From Burkholderiales bacterium (GTDB lineage: Bacteria > Pseudomonadota > Gammaproteobacteria > Burkholderiales > Burkholderiaceae_C): a stretch of DNA of 64,000 bases. The stretch is from contig JAGWTR010000003.1 in the NCBI GenBank assembly GCA_028868855.1, positions 186,001 through 250,000 of the forward strand, written 5' to 3'. Positions 4,966-20,020 of the stretch are shown one piece after another. A program made the translations under genes and the position numbers. The notes beneath the pieces were generated by a model. The model saw only the letters and a program-made list of their open reading frames with translations, ran no database searches and was not told the origin of the DNA. How positions within the stretch are numbered: position 1 is the stretch's first letter; every line of letters begins with the position of its first letter.

Positions 4966-5400
4966 ATGCATAAACTTCACCGAATGGGGTTGATGCTGTG
5001 TGCGACGCTAGCCGCGACCTTCGCGCAGGCGGATGTCTACGTCATCGTCAACGCGTCCAATCCGCAACTCAGCCTCACACACAAGGAGGCGGTCGACCTG
5101 TACATGGGTCGCACCCGCGTCTTTGCCAATGGCGACCACGTGCTGGCCTGCGACCTGCCGCGCGACAGTGCGGTGCGGGCCAGCTTCTACCGGGCCTTGA
5201 CCGGCATGAGTCCCGCACAAGTCAATAGCTACTGGTCGCGCCTGATGTTCACCGGGCAGACCATGCCACCCCAGGCCCTGCCCAATGAGGCGGCCGTGGT
5301 CGAGTTGGTCAAGCACAACCCGGGCGCCATGGGCTATGTGAGCCAGGAGCCCACCGATAAGGGCTTGCACACGGTGCTGGTTCTCAAGGAGGAGCGCTGA
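4966..5400 (+). CDS. small periplasmic phosphate-binding-like protein (PBP_like_2 / PstS-type domain)
   Basis: 144 residues with a signal peptide (residues 1-22, 'CATLAATFAQA|DVYVIVN') and one compact PBP-like domain. Visible family features are 'EAVDLYMGRTRVFANGDHV', 'RASFYRALTGMSPAQVNSYWSRLMFTGQ' and 'NPGAMGYV'. Such short PstS-like proteins lack ABC permease partners and often sit beside signalling genes; no pst genes are near. It lies 7 bp after the porin-like gene and 29 bp before the diguanylate cyclase. The inferred role is binding a small ligand and passing the signal to the periplasmic part of the cyclase. Confidence 0.8.
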   Translation: MHKLHRMGLMLCATLAATFAQADVYVIVNASNPQLSLTHKEAVDLYMGRTRVFANGDHVLACDLPRDSAVRASFYRALTGMSPAQVNSYWSRLMFTGQTMPPQALPNEAAVVELVKHNPGAMGYVSQEPTDKGLHTVLVLKEER

Positions 5401-5429
5401 ACGCCCGCTTGGGGCCGTGCGCGCACGCC

Positions 5430-7037
5430 ATGCGATTCAGAGGCTTGCAGTTCCGCATGATGGTGGCCATGTTGGCCGCCGCCGCTTTGTTTGCGGCAGT
5501 GGCCGGCCTGGTGTCCTACCGCCTGGGCTACCAGCGGGCGCTGGCCGGGGGGCGCGCCACCTTGGATGGCTTGCTCTCGGCGGTCGAAAAAACCGCCGCC
5601 ATTGGCGCGTACACGTCGGACAAAATCCTGCTGCAGGAGGTCATTGATGGCCTGGGCAGCCATGATCTGATCGCCAGTGTCGAGGTGCGCTCACCGCAGG
5701 GCGCCATCATCGTGTCGCGACAGGCCACCAAGACAAGTGGCGCGGACACCGACCCCGGCATCAGGCAGATTGTGGCCCGTCGCTTGGCCTCGCCTTTTGA
5801 CAAGAACGAGGCGGTCGGCGAGGTGCGCATCGAGGCAGACATGGCGCGCCTTCAGGCCTCGGCCTGGGCTGAAGCGGGCGAGCTGTTCCTGGTCATGGCG
5901 GGGCAGACGGCACTGCTGGCGATCGTGCTCTATGTCATGGCGGCCCGCCTGGTGTCGCGCCCCATCGTGCGGCTGGCCGATCGTTTGCGCCGCATGCGGC
6001 CGGGCAGCGATGATCGTTTGATCACCCCCGCCGGTCACTACAACGATGAGATCGGCGCGCTGGTTGAGGGCGCCAACGTCTTGCTGCAAACCAACAGGGA
6101 CGCCTTGCACAACGAGCGGGAGTTGCGCGCCGAGATCGAGAAAATGGAGGCTCAGTACCGCCAGATCTTCGACGCCAGCAGCGCGGGCATTTTTGTGCTG
6201 GACCGCGATGGTCGGCTCGTCAACTGCAACCCGACGGTGCTGCGGGTGCTGGGCCTGCAGTTGTCCGACATGAAGGCCTTGCGCGGCGACGACTTCGTGC
6301 ACAAGGTCTTTGCACGGCCCGATCGCGTCATGAACCTGATCGACGAGTCCGCCCGACTGGCCGAGACGATGGCGGACGACCTGGAGTTGCGGCAGGTGGG
6401 GGAGGCGTCACGCTGGGTCCACTGTCTGATTTCGGTGCAGTTTCCCACCAGCGCGAAGCGCTCGATTGAGGGCGTGATGTACGACATCACCGAGCGCAAA
6501 CGCGCCGAAGTGGAGACGCAGCGCCAGGCTGAGTACGATGCCCTCACCGGGCTGCGCAACCGCCGCGCCACCGATGACGTGATCGATCGCTTCATCACCG
6601 CGGCGGCGCCCGCCATGAACCCGATCAGTGTGCTCTACATCGACCTCGACGGCTTCAAGCAGGTCAACGACCAACTGGGACACAAGGCCGGCGACCAGGT
6701 GTTGGTGCATTGCGCGCAGCGCCTGCGCCACGTGTTGCGGCGCACCAGCGATGTGGTGGGGCGCATTGGCGGGGACGAGTTCGTGGCGGTGCTCAATGGC
6801 GTGGGGCCGGACGATGAGGTGCTGGGCCAGATTGCCCAGGCCATGCTGTCCGCGCTGGCCGAACCCATTGTGTTGGAAGACGGTCAGGTGGCGCGCGTTG
6901 CTGGCAGCATCGGCGTGGCATGCTTTCCGGTGCACGGGACCAACCGCAAGAGCCTGCTGCATGCCGCCGATGAGGCCATGTACGAGGTCAAGCACTCGGG
7001 CAAGAACTGCTTCGCGATGGCCTCTGGCCTGGCGTGA
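5430..7037 (+). CDS. membrane diguanylate cyclase: periplasmic sensor, HAMP, PAS, GGDEF
   Basis: 535 residues from the ATG at 5430; a TTG at 5409 is an alternative. Transmembrane helix 1 is at about 10-32, a periplasmic loop of about 120 residues (CHASE8-like in size) follows, and helix 2 is at about 152-175. Then come HAMP (about 176-228), PAS (about 240-352, ending 'YDITERKRAE') and GGDEF (about 366-535). The active site GGDEF is intact at 447-451 and the allosteric inhibition site RxxD (R438-D441) lies five residues before it, so the enzyme should make c-di-GMP and be product-inhibited. No EAL domain is present. The layout resembles YfiN, with the preceding periplasmic protein in the place of YfiR. 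Confidence 0.92.
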   Translation: MRFRGLQFRMMVAMLAAAALFAAVAGLVSYRLGYQRALAGGRATLDGLLSAVEKTAAIGAYTSDKILLQEVIDGLGSHDLIASVEVRSPQGAIIVSRQATKTSGADTDPGIRQIVARRLASPFDKNEAVGEVRIEADMARLQASAWAEAGELFLVMAGQTALLAIVLYVMAARLVSRPIVRLADRLRRMRPGSDDRLITPAGHYNDEIGALVEGANVLLQTNRDALHNERELRAEIEKMEAQYRQIFDASSAGIFVLDRDGRLVNCNPTVLRVLGLQLSDMKALRGDDFVHKVFARPDRVMNLIDESARLAETMADDLELRQVGEASRWVHCLISVQFPTSAKRSIEGVMYDITERKRAEVETQRQAEYDALTGLRNRRATDDVIDRFITAAAPAMNPISVLYIDLDGFKQVNDQLGHKAGDQVLVHCAQRLRHVLRRTSDVVGRIGGDEFVAVLNGVGPDDEVLGQIAQAMLSALAEPIVLEDGQVARVAGSIGVACFPVHGTNRKSLLHAADEAMYEVKHSGKNCFAMASGLA

Positions 7038-7664
7038 TCAGCCAGGCTCCAGCCCATCGAAGAACTCGACCTCGCCGGTCTCCAGCGAATACTCGGCACC
7101 GACGACCCTCAGGCCGTCCTGTTGAATCAGTTGCTCCAGCAGTTCCGAGCCGTGCCGCAGGTGGTCCACCGAGGCACGCACATTGGCCCGAACGGCGTGG
7201 TGCACCAGGCCGTCCATGTCGTGGCGCAAGTCGGTGTCCAGCAAGCTTTGCACCGAGGGCCGGACTCGATTGACGATTGAGCGCAGGTTGCGGGACTGGT
7301 TCTCGGCCGGCTGTTGCAGCTCTTCGATGGTGGCCAGGATGGCGCCACAGCGCGAATGCCCCAGCACCACCACCAGGGGCGTCCCGAAACGCGAGGCCGC
7401 GAACTCGACGCTGCCCACTTGCGAAGGCGCCACGATGTTGCCGGCCACGCGGATGACAAACAGATCACCCAGGCCTTGGTCGAACACGATCTCGGCCGGC
7501 ACGCGCGAGTCTGAGCAACCCAGGATGATGGCGAACGGCATTTGATCCTGGCGCAACTCCATGGGGCGGGTGGGGCTTGGCAGGCCTTGGCCGGTCTTGA
7601 GGCTGGTGACGAAGCGGCGGTTGCCTTCCTGGAGGCGTTCAAGGGCGTGCTGGGCAGAAATCAT
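7038..7664 (-). CDS. can: beta-class carbonic anhydrase
   Basis: 208 residues with all zinc and catalytic residues of beta-carbonic anhydrases: C50-S-D52-S-R54, and H103-S-R-C106 in 'GHSRCG'. The Asp/Arg dyad next to the first Cys is intact. The reaction is reversible hydration of CO2 to bicarbonate in the cytoplasm. The ATG at 7664 ('MISAQHALERLQEGNRRF') matches the family N-terminus; the frame stays open upstream to 7811 without homology. The stop codon directly abuts the stop of the diguanylate cyclase, with no base between convergent genes. Confidence 0.93.
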   Translation of the reverse strand: MISAQHALERLQEGNRRFVTSLKTGQGLPSPTRPMELRQDQMPFAIILGCSDSRVPAEIVFDQGLGDLFVIRVAGNIVAPSQVGSVEFAASRFGTPLVVVLGHSRCGAILATIEELQQPAENQSRNLRSIVNRVRPSVQSLLDTDLRHDMDGLVHHAVRANVRASVDHLRHGSELLEQLIQQDGLRVVGAEYSLETGEVEFFDGLEPG

Positions 7665-7713
7665 AGGCGGAGTGCAGTCGGGGCTGCGCTGAGGAATGGC
7701 GTATCGGCCTAGT

Positions 7714-8505
7714 TTACTTTTTTGCCTTCCTGGCCACGACGACAAGCCGCTCAAGGCCCTCGTTTTCGTGTGCGGTTTGAAAGCGGTCGATGTTTCTGAT
7801 GAGCAATTCACGCGCCCATCCGGCGGTCGACAGCAGTTGATCGAGCTCGGTCAGCGTGTAGCCATCCAAGTCGAAGGGGATCTCCGTGATGACCGTGTCC
7901 CCCCTCGTGTATCGCCACAGGCAGCGGACCGAATGCAGCCCCTCATTCCACGCGTAGTGCTCCAGCAAATCGAAGTCAGCCAGGTGGGTGGTTCGCTCAA
8001 TGACCGGATGGGCCCTGAACCACTCGGCATTGAAGGTGTCCACAATCAGGCGACCGTCTGGTGTCGAGACGTCGTGGCACGCGCGCAAGATCTGGCCCTC
8101 CACCGTGCGGCTGAAATAGCCGAGCGAGGTGTACGCCCGAACGATCACCTGGAAGTGCTGTTTGGGAAAAAAATCGCCCAGGTTCCGCATGTCACCCTTG
8201 ACCAGGGTCACGTTGCCCAGGGCTTGCGCCTCGCTCATGGCGCAAGCGAGCAACTCGGCGGAATAGTCCAGCCCGACCACCGAGGAGCCGATGTTCGCCA
8301 AGGGCCTGAGCAGGCGGCCGGCGCCGCAACCCAGATCAAGGATGGACACCCGTCGTTCGGCGCGGGGGAAGATTCGGCCCAGCCACGAAGGGTCGATGCA
8401 AGCGGGACGGCCGGCCAGGATGCGCACGAACTCGGGCGCATGCGTGCGAAACATGGCGTCCTTCCAGTCCGTCGCCGTGGCGGACGCGGGCGCGGACTGC
8501 TTCAT
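7714..8505 (-). CDS. class I SAM-dependent methyltransferase
   Basis: 263 residues. Motif I of Rossmann methyltransferases is clear ('ILDLGCGAGRLLRPLANIG', around residue 55-73), with the acidic residue after strand 2 ('VVGLDYSAELLACAM') and motif III/post-I 'VKGDMRNLGDFFPKQHFQVIVRAYTSLGYF'. The family includes CmoA- and UbiE-like small-molecule enzymes; the substrate is not readable. It overlaps the upstream membrane-protein gene by 4 bp, so the two are translationally coupled. Confidence 0.85.
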   Translation of the reverse strand: MKQSAPASATATDWKDAMFRTHAPEFVRILAGRPACIDPSWLGRIFPRAERRVSILDLGCGAGRLLRPLANIGSSVVGLDYSAELLACAMSEAQALGNVTLVKGDMRNLGDFFPKQHFQVIVRAYTSLGYFSRTVEGQILRACHDVSTPDGRLIVDTFNAEWFRAHPVIERTTHLADFDLLEHYAWNEGLHSVRCLWRYTRGDTVITEIPFDLDGYTLTELDQLLSTAGWARELLIRNIDRFQTAHENEGLERLVVVARKAKK

Positions 8506-9257
8506 CGGGACACGAGCTTGAGCCCGACGCGAGCGGCCTCGCGGGCCCAGAGCTCGTCCAGTGCCTGAAACGTCGCGTCCGGCAGCGTGCCTTCCTTGGC
8601 GATCGGAGTCCCCAACTGCAGGGGCTTTTCAGACATCAAAACGGGCACCGACAAGTACTCGCCTTCCCACGATTTGAGATAGGCGATGCCGGCATGCTGA
8701 GGTCGCAGCAGTTCGGTGGCCGTGGGGTAGACATGGATGATGGGCGGCTCGGCACCGACCGCCGCGCGCTGGATGAACATCAGGCGCGGTGACGCCAGGA
8801 AGGCCTCGACATGGTAGGTGTGTTTGGTCGCGTCCGTGCCCGTGACCTCGAACGTCGCGACCAGTTTCCGGGGGACGCGCAGCCGGGCAAAATCCATCGT
8901 TCGATAGCGCCAGATCACCTTGCCATCCATCTTGGTCATCAGGTAGTGATGCCAGACCTTTCGAAACGGATCGAGCTCCTGGTCGGGCGCATTGAACGGG
9001 TTGTGCAATGACTCTTCAATGAGCGCGGTGATGTGTTGCACCGCCGTGGCCTTGGTCAGGCTTCCAAACACCAGGCCAAAACAAGTGCCAAGGCCACTGC
9101 CGCCGAACATCAGCAAAAGCTGAGACAGGACCGGCTGATCCTTGGCGATGCGCGACCCCAACAGGGCGGCCAGGACACTGGCCAGCAAAGCGGCGCCCAG
9201 GAAGGCAAACGATTGCTGCCTGAGCAGCTTGTGGAATCGAGATTCAAGCTGTGTCAT
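8502..9257 (-). CDS. uncharacterised protein with two N-terminal membrane helices
   Basis: 251 residues. Two hydrophobic segments lie at about 16-34 and 44-68, separated by a short polar turn; the rest is a soluble domain with no motif I recognise ('VWRYRTMDFARLRVPRKLVATFEV' and 'PRLMFIQRAAVGAEPPIIHVYP' are its most structured parts). It is probably an inner-membrane protein with a cytoplasmic C-terminal domain. The 4-bp overlap with the methyltransferase gene downstream suggests a shared function. Confidence 0.75.
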   Translation of the reverse strand: MTQLESRFHKLLRQQSFAFLGAALLASVLAALLGSRIAKDQPVLSQLLLMFGGSGLGTCFGLVFGSLTKATAVQHITALIEESLHNPFNAPDQELDPFRKVWHHYLMTKMDGKVIWRYRTMDFARLRVPRKLVATFEVTGTDATKHTYHVEAFLASPRLMFIQRAAVGAEPPIIHVYPTATELLRPQHAGIAYLKSWEGEYLSVPVLMSEKPLQLGTPIAKEGTLPDATFQALDELWAREAARVGLKLVSR

Positions 9258-9380
9258 CCCTCACTCCTGAAGGTGAACTGCTGCCCGCCAAGGCATCAGT
9301 CTGCAGCACACGGCCCGGTCTGACAAGTGCACGCATGATGGGAGGCTTATGATTTTGGCGATCTCCCCTGTTGTGACACC

Positions 9381-10241
9381 ATGACCCCGAACCTGACCCA
9401 GCCCGATGCCGACGCGATCTTCCACATCGCCTTCTACCAATTCGTGACGCTGGAAGATCCCGATGCCGTGGTTGCGCACCTGCGTGAGTTGGTCCAGCCC
9501 TTGACGGGCAGCATCCTGGTGGCGGCCGAGGGCATCAATGGCGTGCTGGCCGGCACGGTGCCCGCGCTGCACGCCTTTGAGCAGGCCTTGCAGCACGACC
9601 CGCGCCTGCAAGGCAAGTTCGCCGGCATCACCTTCAAACGCAGCGCCTGCGCCACCAAACCGTTCTGGAAGGTGCGCGTGCACCGAAAGGCCGAGATCGT
9701 GGCCTTTGGTGTTGAAGGCGTCACCGGGGTGAATGCCGACGCTGACTCGGGTGCGCGGCCCCCGACCCACGTCAGCCCGCAAGCCTGGCGCGAGTTGATC
9801 GCCCGCGACGATGTCGTCGTCATCGACAACCGCAACAGCTTCGAGTTCCGCCTGGGGCATTTCAAATCGGCGCTGGACCCGAAGGTCGACACCTTCCGCG
9901 ACTTTCCCGACTACATCAAGGCCCATGCGCCGCACTGGCAGGCCACGGGCAAACGCGTGGCCATGTATTGCACCGGTGGCATCCGCTGTGAAAAAACCAG
10001 CCGCTGGATGCAAGACCTGGGACTGGACGTGGTGCAACTCGATGGCGGCATCCTGAATTACTTCCAGGCCATGCCGGATGCCGACAAGGACTGGGAGGGC
10101 GAGTGCTTCGTGTTCGACAACCGCATCGCGCTCGACACAACGCTGCACGAAACCGCCACCACCGCCGAAGACGTTTACCAGGGCGACCCTGCGGACGAAT
10201 GGCGCCTGCAGCGCGCCCGGCGCCTGGATTCGGCCGGCTAA
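9381..10241 (+). CDS. trhO: tRNA uridine(34) hydroxylase TrhO (rhodanese family)
   Basis: 286 residues. The N-terminal acylphosphatase-like domain ('AAEGINGVLAG' at about 48-58) is followed by a rhodanese domain with active loop CTGGIRCEK at 197-205 (C197 as first loop Cys, C203 as second). TrhO/YceA uses O2 to make 5-hydroxyuridine at tRNA wobble position 34. The C-terminal tail is shorter than in the roughly 350-residue E. coli protein, which carries an additional Cys-rich end; shorter forms also exist. The gene is immediately followed, with no gap, by a pseudouridine synthase. Confidence 0.92.
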   Translation: MTPNLTQPDADAIFHIAFYQFVTLEDPDAVVAHLRELVQPLTGSILVAAEGINGVLAGTVPALHAFEQALQHDPRLQGKFAGITFKRSACATKPFWKVRVHRKAEIVAFGVEGVTGVNADADSGARPPTHVSPQAWRELIARDDVVVIDNRNSFEFRLGHFKSALDPKVDTFRDFPDYIKAHAPHWQATGKRVAMYCTGGIRCEKTSRWMQDLGLDVVQLDGGILNYFQAMPDADKDWEGECFVFDNRIALDTTLHETATTAEDVYQGDPADEWRLQRARRLDSAG

Positions 10242-13571: not shown

Positions 13572-14480
13572 ATGATGAAAGTATTGATGTTCAGTCGGGT
13601 GGTGAAAGCCACTTTGTTGTCCCTGGCACTGTGCATGTCGACGGTGCAGGCCCGCGAGGGCGTGGATGTCGGCAAGGAGTCGGGCTTTACGCGGCTGGTG
13701 CCTGCCGATCAGGTTGAGCAGGCCGCCTCCCAGCAGTATGTGCAGTTGCAAAACCAGGCCAAGGCGCAAAACGCGCTGCTGCCTGCCAACCATCCGCAGG
13801 TGGTGCGTTTGCGGGCCATTGCCAGACAACTGATCCCCTACAGCCTGGAATGGAACCGGCGCGCCTCCCAATGGCAGTGGGAGGTCAATGTGCTGAACTC
13901 CAAGGAGATCAACGCCTTTTGCATGCCCGGCGGCAAGATCGCCTTCTACACGGGCATCCTGGATCAGTTGAAGCTGACGGACGACGAGGTCGCCATGGTC
14001 ATGGGCCATGAAATGGCGCACGCCCTGCGCGAACATGCGCGCGCCCGCATGGGCAAGACCGCCGCGACCAAGCTGGGCGCCAATTTGCTGTCCAGCCTGC
14101 TGGGCCTGGGCAACACGGGCGACGCCCTGTTGAACATGGGCGGCCAGTTGCTGACCCTGCGCTTCAGCCGTGAGGACGAGTCCGAGGCGGATCTGGTGGG
14201 CATGGAGATCGCCGCACGCTCGGGCTACGACCCGCGCGCGGGCGTGACCCTGTGGCAGAAGATGGCCGCCGCCAGCAAGGGCGCGCCGCCGCAGTGGTTG
14301 TCCACCCACCCATCGGGCAACTCCCGCATCCAGGACATCCAGGCCAACCTGCCCAAGGTCATGCCTTTGTACGAGCGCGCCGACAAACCCCGTCAGCGCT
14401 TTGATGTGCCGCGCCAGGTAGGCTCGGGCTACTTCGAGCGCCTTGAACCGCTGGCCTATTGGGCGGCAGACGGTTCTTGA
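13572..14480 (+). CDS. M48-family periplasmic metalloprotease
   Basis: 302 residues with a signal peptide (about 1-27, 'ALCMSTVQA'). Zinc motif HEMAH at 146-150 with the third ligand Glu in 'EDESEADLVG' (about 205). The Cys in 'MSTVQA' surroundings does not make a clear lipobox, so it is likely soluble periplasmic rather than a lipoprotein like LoiP. It belongs to the BepA/LoiP/YcaL group of envelope quality-control proteases. It follows the AmpG-like gene by 6 bp and faces the MBL hydrolase gene tail to tail with a 7-bp gap. Confidence 0.88.
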   Translation: MMKVLMFSRVVKATLLSLALCMSTVQAREGVDVGKESGFTRLVPADQVEQAASQQYVQLQNQAKAQNALLPANHPQVVRLRAIARQLIPYSLEWNRRASQWQWEVNVLNSKEINAFCMPGGKIAFYTGILDQLKLTDDEVAMVMGHEMAHALREHARARMGKTAATKLGANLLSSLLGLGNTGDALLNMGGQLLTLRFSREDESEADLVGMEIAARSGYDPRAGVTLWQKMAAASKGAPPQWLSTHPSGNSRIQDIQANLPKVMPLYERADKPRQRFDVPRQVGSGYFERLEPLAYWAADGS

Positions 14481-14487
14481 CCCGAGC

Positions 14488-15126
14488 TCAACGGCCCTGC
14501 AGGTGCGGGTTGTAGCGCCGCTCTTCACCCAGGGTGCTCTCGGGCCCATGCCCCGGCGTGAAGGTGACGTCGTCGCCCAGCGGCAGCAGCCTGGTCTTGA
14601 TCGCGTTGATCAAGGTGGGGTGGCTGCCCCCCGGAAAGTCCGTGCGGCCAATGCTGCCGGCAAACAGCACATCGCCCACAAACGCATGGCGCGTGGACGG
14701 GTCAAACAACACCACATGGCCGGGCGTGTGCCCTGGGCAATGCAGCACTTGCAGCGTGCACTGACCGATTTGAACGGTGTCGCCCTCATTCAGCCAGCGC
14801 GTCGGGGCAAAGTGTTCGGCCGGCGGAAAGCCGAACATCTCGGATTGCTGGGGCAGGGCATCGATCCAGAACTGATCGCCTTGGTGCGGGCCGATGATCG
14901 GCAGCGCGTGTTCGCGCGCCAGCGTGCCGGTGGCCCCGGCGTGGTCGATGTGCGCATGCGTGAGCCACAAGGCCTTGAGGTTCAACCCGCGCGCCTTGAC
15001 CTCGGCCAGCAACTTGGGCATGTCCCCGCCGGGGTCGATCAGCGCAGCGTCCTGGGTTGCGTCGCACCAGACCAGCGAGCAGTTCTGCTCGAAAGCGGTG
15101 ACGGGGATGGTGAGGCGTTGGAACAT
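14488..15126 (-). CDS. MBL-fold metallo-hydrolase (glyoxalase II-like, YcbL type)
   Basis: 212 residues. Binuclear metal motif 'THAHIDHAG' (HxHxDH) lies near residue 75, with further ligands in 'HCPGHTPGHVV' and 'FVGDVLFAGSIGRTDFPGG' and the last His in 'FTPGHGPES'. The layout and length match YcbL/GloB-like thioester hydrolases. The ATG at 15126 was chosen because homology begins there ('MFQRLTIPVTAFEQN'). The region just upstream carries a cluster of palindromic sites (15151-15230) that may control it. Confidence 0.88.
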   Translation of the reverse strand: MFQRLTIPVTAFEQNCSLVWCDATQDAALIDPGGDMPKLLAEVKARGLNLKALWLTHAHIDHAGATGTLAREHALPIIGPHQGDQFWIDALPQQSEMFGFPPAEHFAPTRWLNEGDTVQIGQCTLQVLHCPGHTPGHVVLFDPSTRHAFVGDVLFAGSIGRTDFPGGSHPTLINAIKTRLLPLGDDVTFTPGHGPESTLGEERRYNPHLQGR

Positions 15127-15150
15127 GGCTTGCGTGGAGGAATCTGAAAA

Positions 15151-15230
15151 CAAAGTTTCGAACTTTGTGTCAATGTATCGAACTTCTGGTCGGCAAGGGT
15201 GAGTGCTCGTTGACCAAAGTTTCGAACTTG
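15151..15230. promoter_or_regulatory. cluster of three related palindromic sites, putative operator
   Basis: CAAAGTT-TCG-AACTTTG at 15151-15167 is a perfect 7+7 dyad. A degenerate copy CAATGTATCGAACTT lies at 15171-15185 and a further copy CAAAGTTTCGAACTTG at 15215-15230. Centres are at about 15159, 15179 and 15223, that is 20 and 44 bp apart, near whole helical turns. The cluster begins 25 bp upstream of the MBL hydrolase start codon. It is likely the binding site of an unidentified repressor; the regulator is not evident in the window. Confidence 0.6.
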
Positions 15231-15609
15231 CATGATTGGCTTGAAAAATTTGGGCGCGCAGCAATCAGGTAGGTGTACTTGGCCGAGTGCTTGTGACCGG
15301 GTAAGGCTGGGTGCGGACAGTTACTGCAGTTCGGCCGACTGCCCTCAAACGACCCTCAGCGGACCCTCTCCTCCCAAGGGCAACAACGGCAGCTTACCGA
15401 TTTGAGCCGCCGTTCAGAGTGGTGGCTGGACGCGAACTACTCGACCCAAGCTGACCTTTTTTGCCCTCTGGCCAGAATTGGGCGGCAATACACCAGTTGG
15501 CAGTCGCTCCGCTGCTGATTGCCTTCAATGACTGCTTAGGTAACCAAACCGGCAGCAGGCCCGCTGCGGCTCAGGGCTCCAATCCTAATTGCTCGGCGCA
15601 CTATCTCAG
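15231..15609. other. intergenic stretch without recognised gene
   Basis: About 380 bp between the operator cluster and the end of the zinc-ribbon gene. Short open frames exist (for example 15461-15682 on the plus strand) but show no recognisable protein pattern, and I see no RNA gene or terminator here. Confidence 0.5.
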
Positions 15610-16746
15610 CTATGCATGTAGCCCCAAGACGTCAGTCGCAAAACACTCTGAACTTCCGGCAAACGGACGTTTGGGAACATAGCCAGCAACCTGATCGTAC
15701 GCCTGGAATACCGCTATTTCTGACTCTAGGCACTCCCTCCTTGTGCCGTTTTTTACGTGCAATAGTGTGATGGTATAGCCTGACGTCTCAAGAGTTCTCT
15801 TGCGTCGATCTACATCGTTCGAGATTCCCACCTTGTAGAAGGACTCCTCTCCATCCGTAAAATGCATGTAGTAAAACGAGCACGGTTCATTAGCAAAATC
15901 GTCGCTAAGAGTATCAGGTTGCCATCTACCAATGAGTCTCTCCCGAGCGCACTTTGGGCAACCTTGTCCAGCGAGGTGCTTATGACCACGTTGGCGAAAA
16001 AAACCATGCTTTTGACACTTGATCGAAACAGCCTCGCTCCCGCCAGAGTAGTTCGACAAGTTGTACTCGTAGCGCTCGCCGTGAACCGATATCGCTAACT
16101 GAAGCCAGTCATCCTTGGGTATGCGACGAAGTGCTCCACTGATCACTCTTGCGCACTTTGGACAACGCCTTTTGTTCCATAAATGATTGCGCGCACCGGC
16201 GAGGAATAAACCGTGGTCTGGACAAATGACACTAATGATGGAGTTTGGGCCATCGTAAGGCTGTTCTGGATAGAAATAGCGCCCTTGGTGCGCCTCAATG
16301 CAACGCTCGAAAAACTCGTTCGCATGCAATTTTCTTGACTCTTCAGTTCTGATACGACCACAGGCTGGGCAACCAAAACCCGTCAAATGATTTCCGGCGG
16401 TTTGTAAGAACGCCCCATGCACTGGACAGATAATTCGAATTTGCTGCTTCGATCCGGTGTAAATCGCCTCAGAATAATCATAGTAATTCCCATGCTTTTC
16501 GATAGCATTCTTGATGAAGTTCTCGAGATTGGACTTTCGGGCACTAGCTCTCCTTACTAGGCCGCACTGTGGACATCCGGTGCCGGAAAGGTGATGCCCG
16601 GCTGGAGTAAAAAACTCGCCGTGCTGCGGACATAGAACGCGAACTTTATCCTTCGCTGACTTGTATGTCGCATTCGAATAGTCATAGATCTCGCCATGAA
16701 CTTCTCTGGCCCTATGAACGAATTCCTGAGTGGTCATACGCTTCAT
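15610..16746 (-). CDS. four-repeat zinc-ribbon protein with C-terminal GIY-YIG-like domain
   Basis: 378 residues. Four tandem units of about 58 residues (about 4-62, 73-130, 141-198, 210-267), each with pattern F-x-x-A/C-x5-H-x-x-Y-x-Y, then I/V-x-C-P-x-H-G-x-F, then H-L-x4-C-P-x-C. Each can hold one zinc with Cys/His plus CPxC; repeat 4 has CQKHG instead of CPxHG. From about 288 a GIY-YIG/T5orf172-like domain follows: 'FYYMHF', 'SFYKVGISNDVDRRKR', and a Glu in 'LESEIAVF'. Such proteins are seen in phages and mobile regions and suggest DNA binding plus nicking. Base composition is visibly AT-richer than the surroundings. The ATG at 16746 gives repeat 1 intact. Confidence 0.75.
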   Translation of the reverse strand: MKRMTTQEFVHRAREVHGEIYDYSNATYKSAKDKVRVLCPQHGEFFTPAGHHLSGTGCPQCGLVRRASARKSNLENFIKNAIEKHGNYYDYSEAIYTGSKQQIRIICPVHGAFLQTAGNHLTGFGCPACGRIRTEESRKLHANEFFERCIEAHQGRYFYPEQPYDGPNSIISVICPDHGLFLAGARNHLWNKRRCPKCARVISGALRRIPKDDWLQLAISVHGERYEYNLSNYSGGSEAVSIKCQKHGFFRQRGHKHLAGQGCPKCARERLIGRWQPDTLSDDFANEPCSFYYMHFTDGEESFYKVGISNDVDRRKRTLETSGYTITLLHVKNGTRRECLESEIAVFQAYDQVAGYVPKRPFAGSSECFATDVLGLHA

Positions 16747-17225
16747 GGGGATTTAATATATCCGAACACGAAGGGCGCGAAGCGCCTGGCGCATTTACGA
16801 TAATGCGCTGCTATGCTAAATCACTGACCTGCGCTGGGGCAAGATGGCGTTGTTCGGGTGGCGCAGGCAGGAAAGATAAAGTCGAGGGCGTTGCTTTTGG
16901 CGTGGCTCAGTTAGTGACAAGCTAGCGAGGGTGTCCGACGGCGACACGCTAGCCGTGTAGCCAAGCCCGAATGACCGGTCCGCATGAGATTCGGGGAGTG
17001 CTGGCTGAGAATTGCGACTGGCAGCATTGGGTCGCCCCCGTCCTACGCCGATGATGGAAACGGCCATTGACTACCATGAGCTACGGATCGGCAGGTATGA
17101 GCCGCATTGCTGCCAAAATTAGGCTATGGTCCACCCTCAGCTTTGGCCGAGGTCCTTCCGCAGAAGTTCTGGCCGGTCTCAGAGCGCAGCAGCCGTTCAA
17201 GTGACGGCGAACCTAAAAAGACCAA

Positions 17226-17250
17226 TTTCCGCTTCTGGCCGAGAGCAGTC
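17226..17250. repeat. dispersed spacer repeat, copy 1
   Basis: TTTCCGCTTCTGGCCGAGAG and the bases after it share the core TCCGCTYCYGGCCGR with copies at 18167 and 39106. All three lie between genes. A weaker relative (TTCTGGCCGGTCTCAGAGCG) starts at about 17167. Confidence 0.5.
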
Positions 17251-17282
17251 GACGGCTGAGATACCACCGACCGTCGGCTATC

Positions 17283-17312
17283 GCTGCTTATGTAGATCTC
17301 TACATAAGCAGC
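17283..17312. repeat. 30-bp near-perfect palindrome
   Basis: Arms GCTGCTTATGTAGA and TCTACATAAGCAGC are perfect reverse complements over 14 bp, separated by TC. No T-run follows, so it is not an obvious intrinsic terminator. It could be a protein-binding, recombination or resolution site, or an mRNA stem ahead of the Gre-like gene that starts 149 bp downstream. Confidence 0.75.
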
Positions 17313-17460
17313 GGTTCCTGCCGTTCGATGCACCGAAATGGGCGACAGGACAGGGCCCATAGCTGAAGTTAACCTGCAGCCAGCAGAAGCGTCGAAGGAT
17401 GGTGGAGCCCTTCATAATCAAGACCTGCCCTCCGCTTGTTCGAGATGCCTACCTTTCATC

Positions 17461-17943
17461 ATGGATAAATTCTTGCTGCAGCAGCAGGTGTTGGAACGGC
17501 TCGCCGAAGACCTGCTGCAAGCCGAACAGGCAGCGCGGGCGGCCCATGAAACGGCAACTCACGAAGAAAACATCGCCGAAAACAAATACGACACACTGGG
17601 ACTCGAAGCCGCCTACCTGGCTACCGGCCAAGCTCGGCGCGCCGAAGCCATCCGCCAGGCGATGGCCAATTGGCGCCAATTCCGCCCGCGCCCCTACGAC
17701 GCCAGCAAAGGTATACAGCTCGGCGCGCTGGTCTGCCTGGTCGATTCCGACGACAAGCAGCAACAGCTCTTTCTCGGCCCGGATGGGGGCAGCATGAAGT
17801 TGGTCAGCGGCGATCAGCTTGTTCAGGTCATCAGCAGCGAAGCCCCTTTGGGCAGGGCCATGCTGGGTAAATGCGAGGGTGATGAGGTGTCGATACAGGT
17901 CGCTCCAATTCGACAGCAGTTTGAGGTGCTGCGGGTTCATTAA
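17461..17943 (+). CDS. GreA/GreB-family transcription elongation factor-like protein
   Basis: 160 residues. An N-terminal helical hairpin (about 1-75, rich in Ala/Glu/Gln, 'ERLAEDLLQAEQAARAAHETATHEEN') is followed by a C-terminal FKBP-like Gre domain with 'IQLGALVCLVDSDDKQQQLFLGPDGG' and 'GRAMLGKCEGDEVSIQV', matching the GreA/B pattern S-P-hG-x-ALhGxxxGDxV. Acidic residues at the coiled-coil tip are present ('ENIAENKYDT'). It may modulate RNA polymerase as Gre-like paralogues do. The ATG at 17461 matches the start of homology; the frame is open upstream to 17338 without pattern. It lies in the accessory patch, with no operon partner. Confidence 0.8.
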   Translation: MDKFLLQQQVLERLAEDLLQAEQAARAAHETATHEENIAENKYDTLGLEAAYLATGQARRAEAIRQAMANWRQFRPRPYDASKGIQLGALVCLVDSDDKQQQLFLGPDGGSMKLVSGDQLVQVISSEAPLGRAMLGKCEGDEVSIQVAPIRQQFEVLRVH

Positions 17944-18553
17944 TCCGCAAGCAAGTTCACGCCGAATTGGCCGAGGTCAGTAGTACTTTGAAACCGGCCA
18001 CTGGGTCCGAGATGTCACTGGCGCATGAATGACCTCTGTGTGCCCCAGACCGTGAACTCAGGGGGCCGACATCACCGGCAGCAACCGCTGCCAAACGGGC
18101 ACTCGGCCTGACGCAGCGAATGCCCGGAACGGGTCGATAGCCGCCGGCCCATGATCGCTGCGCGAACGTCCGCTCCTGGCCGGGAGTATGGGTCTATGCC
18201 TCTGCATTGATGCGGGTAAGGCCTCTTGGGTTGAACCACAGGCCGCGCATGGTCTGGTTAAACAGCTTCTTGATTCAAAGGTCCAAGGCCAGGGCTCGCC
18301 GGAGGCCAATTACCTGCTTGACCTTAAGGAAGCATTGCCCTCTTCGCTGGCACCATCTCTGAAGGCCAAGCAATCGCTGGCAGGCGTCAAGAAGGTGATC
18401 GCAACAATGGTCAGACCTATTGGAAGCGTGTTGCCTAGAAATGCCAGGAGGCGTATGGTGACTCTGCTGTGCGTCACTGCGGAATACAAGCGCTCGATCC
18501 CCGGCGGCAGTGGTCGAGATAAACCCGGTTGCGCAGGCTTGATGGAGAGCGAG
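17944..18553. other. 610-bp intergenic region with spacer repeat
   Basis: No supported gene. Open frames in 18188-18553 are continuous with the MFS reading frame but show no MFS or other protein pattern. A copy of the dispersed spacer repeat lies at 18167-18191, within a segment (about 17960-18190) typical of Burkholderiales intergenic spacer DNA. Confidence 0.5.
18167..18191. repeat. dispersed spacer repeat, copy 2
   Basis: CGTCCGCTCCTGGCCGGGAG shares the TCCGCTYCYGGCCGR core with copies at 17226 and 39106. Confidence 0.5.
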
Positions 18554-20020
18554 ATGAATGCCCGCATTCAACCCACGGTGGCGTACAAGGGCAACGACCG
18601 ACTGCTATTGGGCATCATCATGGGCGTCATCGCGTTCTGGCTGTTTGCCCAGACCACGCTCAACATCGCGCCCGACATGAGTCGCGACCTCGGCATGGAT
18701 GCCACCATGATGAACGTCGCGGTGGCCATCACCTCGCTGTTCTCTGGCATTTTCATCGTGGTGATGGGAGGCTTGGCCGACCGTGTGGGCCGGCTGAAGA
18801 TCACGCGCATTGGCTTTTACCTGAGCATCGCTGGCTCGTTGCTGGTGGCCATCACGCCCCAGGGTCAGCTGGCTGCGCCAGTCATGCTGCTGGGCCGTGC
18901 GCTGCAAGGCCTGTCGGCGGCCTGCATCATGCCGGCCAGCCTGGCGCTGGTGAAGGCTTTTTGGGATGGCCCCGAACGCCAGCGTGCCATCAGCATGTGG
19001 TCGATCGGGTCGTGGGGCGGCTCTGGCCTGTGCGCGCTGTTCGGCGGCTTGATGTCGCAGCACTTCGGCTGGCGCTCGATCTTCTGGGTGGCCATCGCTG
19101 TGAGCGTGCTCGGCCTGTGGATGATGCACGGCACGCCCGAGAGCAAGGCTGAAACCAGGGGCGAGTACAGGTTCGACCTGCCTGGCGTGCTGGCCTTCAT
19201 GGTCACCATGGTGGCACTGCAGGTGCTGGTGACCCAGGGCAACAAGCTGGGGTGGACCAGCCCGGTGGGCCTGGGGCTGCTGGTGGTGACGGCGGTGTTC
19301 GGCTGGCTGTTCTTGCGCATCGAAGGCAAGGCGTCCAATGCGTTCTTCGACTTCAGTCTGTTCAAGAACGCGACCTACACCGGTGCGACGATTTCCAACT
19401 TCCTGATCAACGGAACGGCCGGCACGCTGATCGTGTCGCTGCAACTGGTGCAGCTCGGCGGCGGCATGAACGCCCAACAGGCCGGCTTTCTGACGCTGGG
19501 CTACGCGATTGCCATCATTGCCTTCATTCGCGTGGGCGAGAAGTTGCTGCAGCGCTTCGGTCCACGCAAGCCGATGATCTGGGGCTGCCTGATCACGGGC
19601 CTGGCGATCCTGTTGGTGTCGCCCGCCAACCTGCTGCTGTCGGACTACAAGATCCTCGCGAGCGTCGGCTACGCGCTGTTCGGTGTCGGCCTCGCGTTCT
19701 ACGCCACCCCCTCGACCGATGCGGCGCTGTCGAATCTGCCAGCGCCCCAGGCGGGGTCGGGTTCGGGCATTTACAAGATGGCGTCGTCGCTTGGCGCCGC
19801 CTTCGGCGTGGCGATTTCCGCCGCCATTTTCACCGCGCTCAGCGGCGACCGCACGAGCGTGCACTGGCTTGAGGGCGTGATCACCTTCAGTGGCCGCCAG
19901 GACAACCTGGCCGTGCGGGAAGCGGCCATCGTTGCGCTGGGCTTCAACGTGCTGATGGTCGTGATCGCCATCGTCTCGATCATGCTCACGGTGCCCAAGG
20001 GCGCGAAGGCACAGGCTTGA
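18554..20020 (+). CDS. MFS multidrug-type exporter, DHA2 family
   Basis: 488 residues with about 14 hydrophobic segments. The loop 2-3 motif is 'GGLADRVGRLKITRIG' (G-x-L-a-D-r-x-G-r-k/r), and motif C-like glycines occur in 'SIGSWGGSGLCALFGGLMSQHFGWRSIFW', typical of drug/H+ antiporters of the EmrB/QacA/SmvA group. The ATG at 18554 follows the ribosome binding site GGAGAGCG; an ATG at 18542 is also in frame. The M20 amidohydrolase gene starts 62 bp downstream on the same strand, suggesting export or uptake linked to an amidated compound. Confidence 0.88.
   Translation: MNARIQPTVAYKGNDRLLLGIIMGVIAFWLFAQTTLNIAPDMSRDLGMDATMMNVAVAITSLFSGIFIVVMGGLADRVGRLKITRIGFYLSIAGSLLVAITPQGQLAAPVMLLGRALQGLSAACIMPASLALVKAFWDGPERQRAISMWSIGSWGGSGLCALFGGLMSQHFGWRSIFWVAIAVSVLGLWMMHGTPESKAETRGEYRFDLPGVLAFMVTMVALQVLVTQGNKLGWTSPVGLGLLVVTAVFGWLFLRIEGKASNAFFDFSLFKNATYTGATISNFLINGTAGTLIVSLQLVQLGGGMNAQQAGFLTLGYAIAIIAFIRVGEKLLQRFGPRKPMIWGCLITGLAILLVSPANLLLSDYKILASVGYALFGVGLAFYATPSTDAALSNLPAPQAGSGSGIYKMASSLGAAFGVAISAAIFTALSGDRTSVHWLEGVITFSGRQDNLAVREAAIVALGFNVLMVVIAIVSIMLTVPKGAKAQA

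Follow-up and report, generated by a model that had tools for sequence, protein, structure and literature searches.

The DNA considered here (the window) is a stretch of 64,000 nucleotides from a Burkholderiales bacterium (assembly GCA_028868855.1, contig JAGWTR010000003.1, positions 186,001 to 250,000), and the gene in question is an open reading frame (ORF) on its minus strand that encodes a protein with a tandem array of zinc-ribbon repeats followed by a C-terminal domain of the GIY-YIG type. The parts of the gene are listed below in window coordinates, with the evidence for each in brackets.

15610..16746, minus strand: whole gene; four zinc-ribbon repeats plus a predicted GIY-YIG (T5orf172-type) nuclease; 378 amino acids (aa) (ORF, Pfam, PHROG, homologues, motifs)
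16561..16731, minus strand: zinc-ribbon repeat 1, about residues 6-62; C39, H42, C58, C61 (motifs; modelled helix, two strands, short helix, helix)
16357..16527, minus strand: zinc-ribbon repeat 2, about residues 74-130; C107, H110, C126, C129 (motifs and model)
16150..16323, minus strand: zinc-ribbon repeat 3, about residues 142-199; C175, H178, C195, C198; ARNHLW at 185-190 (motifs, signature)
15946..16116, minus strand: zinc-ribbon repeat 4, about residues 211-267; C244, H247, C263, C266 (motifs and Pfam)
15613..15909, minus strand: predicted GIY-YIG/T5orf172 nuclease domain, residues 280-378; Y292, K305, G307, R315, E343, then FxGxxEC at 362-368 (alignment, predicted structure, fold matches)

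Each repeat combines a CxxHG motif (starting at residues 39, 107, 175 and 244) with a CPxC motif (starting at residues 58, 126, 195 and 263), giving four complete CHCC ligand sets in tandem with a period of 68, 68 and 69 residues. The initial annotation, made from the sequence alone, had proposed four repeats with one Cys/His-CPxC site each, which is what we find; its figure of 58 residues is about the size of one unit and does not hold as the spacing. Two Pfam families match the protein above their cut-offs, DUF723 (E 1.5e-9, 38.1 bits vs 20.9) and DUF4379, the ‘probable treble clef zinc finger’ (E 9.9e-7, 29.3 bits vs 24.5); the repeats are a DUF723/DUF4379 zinc-finger array and, judging by these families, would each bind zinc. 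The protein also matches the PHROG 681 ‘endonuclease’ profile at 2.2e-84 (best stretch residues 75-372), and a protein search with it returned 432 homologues at E<=1e-3. Together with the DUF723 and DUF4379 matches, these figures put the observation far beyond chance.

The C-terminal domain contains FYYMHF (residues 291-296), YKVGIS and a late Glu, E343, all of which had been pointed out initially. Its assignment to the T5orf172/GIY-YIG type is supported by the fold, by the residues and by relatives above the Pfam cut-offs, whose family membership is carried over to it. The predicted structure of the domain (predicted local distance difference test, pLDDT, 88.5; predicted template modelling score, pTM, 0.80) agrees with a GIY-YIG fold and clearly matches models of phage T5orf172/CapR-repeat proteins, and the nearest solved structures are Slx1, HIGLE and UPF0213, with modest Z scores. 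Y292, K305, G307 and R315 are invariant across 16 sequences and E343 nearly so; in an alignment of 11 diverse C-termini, G307 and E343 are invariant and Y292, K305 and R315 nearly so. Judging by their pattern and by general knowledge of the family, we take Y292, K305, G307, R315 and E343 to have the canonical GIY-YIG roles. The full-length relatives P0032 and P0017 score above both Pfam cut-offs, T5orf172 and MUG113, and 15 of the 16 members of set A1 touch T5orf172 at E<=0.1. The window protein itself matches T5orf172 only weakly, below the Pfam cut-off (E 0.044, score 14.7 vs 20, residues 296-322), though GIY-YIG similarity and a Tyr/Arg/Glu set are both present, and we regard the protein as very probably a nuclease.

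Related proteins are numerous, and most protein matches are to the repeats: a GIY-YIG-like C-terminus was recognized by motif pattern in 20 of the 219 proteins fetched, and P0030, P0046 and P0075 give weak matches, below the Pfam cut-off, to Vsr or MTES_1575 nucleases. A profile built from seven sequences found 4155 proteins at E<=1e-60 among 7999 scored candidates. A relative is present in 860 of 50,697 phage records (326 cover at least 80% of the query) and in 26 of 72,556 plasmid records (three cover at least 80%). Among the 40 phage records listed, identities do not exceed 37.1%, and some records have many matching places, as many as 12 in one case. In phage Mangalyan, by its annotation, a relative follows two pieces of an anaerobic ribonucleoside triphosphate reductase that have an HNH endonuclease between them, and in Vibrio phage 141O35-1 a single gene separates a GIY-YIG gene from a DUF723 gene, with tail genes a few kb away. 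Single-protein scans of IMG/VR yielded no relative when run with the window protein and one when run with P0032.

The novelty of the architecture that the initial annotation implied does not stand, because Barth et al. 2023 (PMC10448857) already describe T5orf172 domains combined with repeated DUF723/CapR-type fingers; the window gene adds one more member to a kind that has already been described. In the parts of that paper drawn on here, T5orf172 is a GIY-YIG subfamily, phage T5orf172 genes are treated as homing endonucleases, and CapR, DUF723 or ‘DUF4397’ (DUF4379 in one legend) zinc fingers, often repeated, occur in 200 of 229, with repeat recombination and domain swapping also reported. 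Like these enzymes (PMC10448857; PHROG 681), the window protein is free-standing, with a zinc-finger array at one end and a T5orf172-type GIY-YIG domain at the other; unlike them, as far as that account goes, its gene lies in single copy on a large bacterial contig and belongs to a subset with four repeats in fixed order, and homing would be a matter of analogy. The second known system, Odn (Gp88) of phage ICP1, is a T5orf172 nuclease turned on the origin of a satellite (PMC8263062); it shares with the window protein a stand-alone gene and a T5orf172 domain with the conserved Arg and Glu, whereas, in the excerpts of that source used here, Odn is encoded by a phage and reads DNA by a RepA_N domain, without zinc ribbons. 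Similar zinc arrays have further been reported joined to a Vsr-like domain in homing endonuclease genes of group II introns (PMC12350094). These Vsr/EDxHD-type arrays, among which we count P0030, P0046 and P0075, also place CapR/DUF723/DUF4379 repeats of about 60 aa ahead of the nuclease, which is Vsr- or MTES_1575-like (below the Pfam cut-off in these three proteins), in contrast to the GIY-YIG domain of the window protein.

The contig that carries the gene measures about 419 kb, and the profiled neighbours are genes for rhodanese, pseudouridine synthase, MetA-pathway, major facilitator superfamily (MFS), M48, metallo-beta-lactamase-fold (MBL), GreA/GreB-like, a second MFS, M20, glycine transporter and esterase proteins. 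Because of the size of the contig and these housekeeping-type neighbours we infer, as had been stated initially, that the gene is chromosomal; it is the sole match in the 3.4-Mb assembly, in which no second copy was found. The G+C content (GC) of the gene is 0.49 vs 0.64 for the window, and its GC at third codon positions is 0.51 vs 0.77-0.88 in five neighbouring genes. At E<=1e-3 the gene was found in none of 60 related genomes, 36 of them of the same genus. The deviating composition, the housekeeping-type neighbours, the absence from the 36 congeners and the lack of an intron match (none in Rfam at E<=1 for 14400-18700, or at gathering score for the window) suggest that the gene was probably borrowed, as a recent and isolated acquisition. 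An intron-encoded homing endonuclease was rejected as an explanation, the gene being in no group I or II intron by the same Rfam searches. Neither an intron nor a transfer RNA gene was matched as an insertion site (no transfer RNA gene lies within the 64 kb), and a flanking repeated element was set aside, both intergenic flanks being single in the genome, bar a palindrome that matches itself. The motif at 17233 occurs once. Among 14 congener stretches fetched, 11 contain both the M48 and the MBL gene, and none contains the nuclease gene or the right-hand neighbours of the window, one of the 14 stretches ending at the MBL gene; for this reason the left side of the locus looks ancestral, and the right side differs from the congeners.

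We consider the window protein likely, though by no means certain, to be a free-standing homing-type endonuclease. The four ribbons would occupy successive stretches of a long, asymmetric DNA target and so position the C-terminal GIY-YIG domain, which would cut the DNA with the help of a metal by means of Y292, R315 and E343; as in the phage family, the cut might then be repaired from a DNA copy bearing the gene, by which the gene would spread. Here the seemingly intact gene would be a lone, probably recent arrival, flanked by the MBL-fold gene and the GreA/GreB-like gene. That the ribbons touch DNA, that the enzyme cuts it and that the gene homes are all inferences, and Barth et al. caution, in the portion of their paper used here, that active homing often cannot be deduced from sequence alone (PMC10448857). 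Of the three functions that the initial annotation had offered, a homing endonuclease is the best supported; a defence effector finds little support in the window, and nothing in the present data speaks for RNA targeting.

A different fate of the same family has to be considered for the closest relatives, which share the signature ARNHLW in repeat 3. The gene could be a domesticated chromosomal nuclease, a bacterial descendant of homing enzymes in which a fixed four-ribbon reader guards against a fixed sequence of a mobile element, much as Odn acts against a satellite origin; we think this not very likely. The order of the repeats is in its favour: all 12 full-length ARNHLW proteins, including that of the window, have four repeats with complete motifs and almost uniform length (repeat 1 is three residues longer in one of them). 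Compared between subset proteins, a repeat is most similar to its positional counterpart in 483 of 528 cases, vs 267 of 728 for 14 further proteins with four repeats. These 14 were the first found; several near copies among them raise their figure, and a somewhat lower mean identity (0.46 vs 0.50 in the subset) lowers it. The signature occurs in 13 of the 219 fetched proteins (among them the window's own and P0018, a shorter piece of 330 aa), in the loci of the window's own genome and in L049, from the chromosome of a metagenome-assembled Pseudohongiella genome, and in none of 80 IMG/VR loci, though the scan that yielded 79 of these included the ARNHLW pattern. P0032, a ‘GIY-YIG nuclease family protein’ of Polaribacter sp. 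L3A8, and L049 are full-length relatives of the window protein (44% and 42% identity), and both carry ARNHLW. P0032 is encoded on a 4.2-Mb contig, and chromosome-sized contigs of this kind are likewise compatible with domestication. Polaribacter belongs to the Bacteroidota, so that the ARNHLW form is found in two phyla, yet is rare.

The neighbourhoods of homologues, whose inspection had been recommended initially, point both ways: L049 adjoins a defence-like cluster (5319-9394) of helix-turn-helix, DUF6791-ThiF and DUF6527 genes and an M78 gene that matches PD-Lambda-2_B at 6.2e-51, whereas L050 and L051, which are bacterial and lack ARNHLW, also stand alone among ordinary-looking genes, as judged by eye with two neighbours profiled. 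L049 differs from the window gene in this neighbourhood and in an N-terminal extension, and its fourth repeat is one zinc ligand short, the His being lost (CKKRG). Other observations likewise argue against domestication. Neither the window protein (no families at E<=0.01) nor its relative L049 has a PADLOC match (PADLOC-DB 2.0.0), and none of the profiled window neighbours is a defence gene. The form is very rare: at E<=1e-40 nothing matched in three overlapping samples of other genomes, 398 from the order, 397 from the phylum and 389 from the order to which the L049 genome belongs. A scan of 84,980 species genomes gave eight loci, with ARNHLW in L049 only, using two short patterns that will miss diverged copies. 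Several ARNHLW members are known from short contigs only, and ARNHLW-bearing phages may simply be unsampled so far. A tree of 29 C-terminal domains has good support on three of 26 inner branches and unites the ARNHLW rows in 16% of 200 bootstrap trees; with no ARNHLW clade in the tree, the subset rests on the signature, the repeat order and full-length identity. The wider proposal, that the subset is a bacterial, non-phage branch in which repeat shuffling stopped, the reader became fixed on one target and a selfish homing enzyme took on, as a stand-alone gene, the protection against a mobile element common to distant phyla, we hold to be unlikely. Among the papers listed in searches on T5orf172/GIY-YIG and DUF723/CapR/DUF4379, in a library without most subscription papers, none dealt plainly with such a chromosomal subset, ARNHLW-type terms not having been searched.

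The gene might also be an inactive passenger, a homing gene that came from a phage or plasmid, was left behind in the chromosome and is now decaying. This would fit its single genome match, low GC, isolation and absence from all 36 congeners, but is rather improbable: its 378 codons show no stop or frameshift, none of the sixteen zinc ligands or catalytic residues is lost, and three other proteins are 61-63% identical to it across 99-100% of its length. A DNA-binding regulator without nuclease activity, suggested by the satellite repressor CapR, which has the same kind of zinc finger according to the part of PMC10448857 used here and whose model is touched at E<=0.1 by five of the 16 members of set A1, is highly improbable, since conserved GIY-YIG catalytic residues are present that repression alone would not need.

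Several further features surround the gene. On its 3' side, the MBL-fold ORF (14488-15264) is probably over-extended, with its true start near 15132, because 13 of the 21 best matches within the genus align only from residue 40-46 onward, and several of those that extend further cross stops. Three 15-nt direct repeats, two of them exact, with the near-palindromic core AAGTTCGAAACTT, lie at 15151-15229, where the MBL gene probably has its promoter. In the 3.4-Mb genome, AAGTTCGAAACTT occurs exactly only in these two copies, 380-460 bp beyond the 3' end of the nuclease gene; allowing one mismatch adds two more matches, no more than the three control matches. A looser form of the motif was not found in the 13 congener MBL stretches examined. 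The repeats could be an operator; we do not claim them as a target of the nuclease. On the other side, the gene adjoins 17338-17943, which encodes a small protein with the GreA/GreB C-terminal domain as its sole Pfam match (1.5e-8) and was not found in the congener MBL stretches; upstream of it, at 17265-17330, lies an inverted repeat whose 32-nt arms are 78% complementary and separated by 2 nt. Elsewhere in the window, 52196-52259 matches Rfam RF02278, the Betaproteobacteria toxic small RNA (55.7 bits vs a gathering score of 50).

Arrays of zinc ribbons have the look of modular DNA readers, for which no base code is known to us. With exactly four ribbons in fixed order, a compact size and diverged relatives, this enzyme is well suited to determining how many bases each ribbon reads. 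Should the chromosomal subset indeed be domesticated, bacteria would have in it an equivalent of Odn, which phages direct against a satellite origin.
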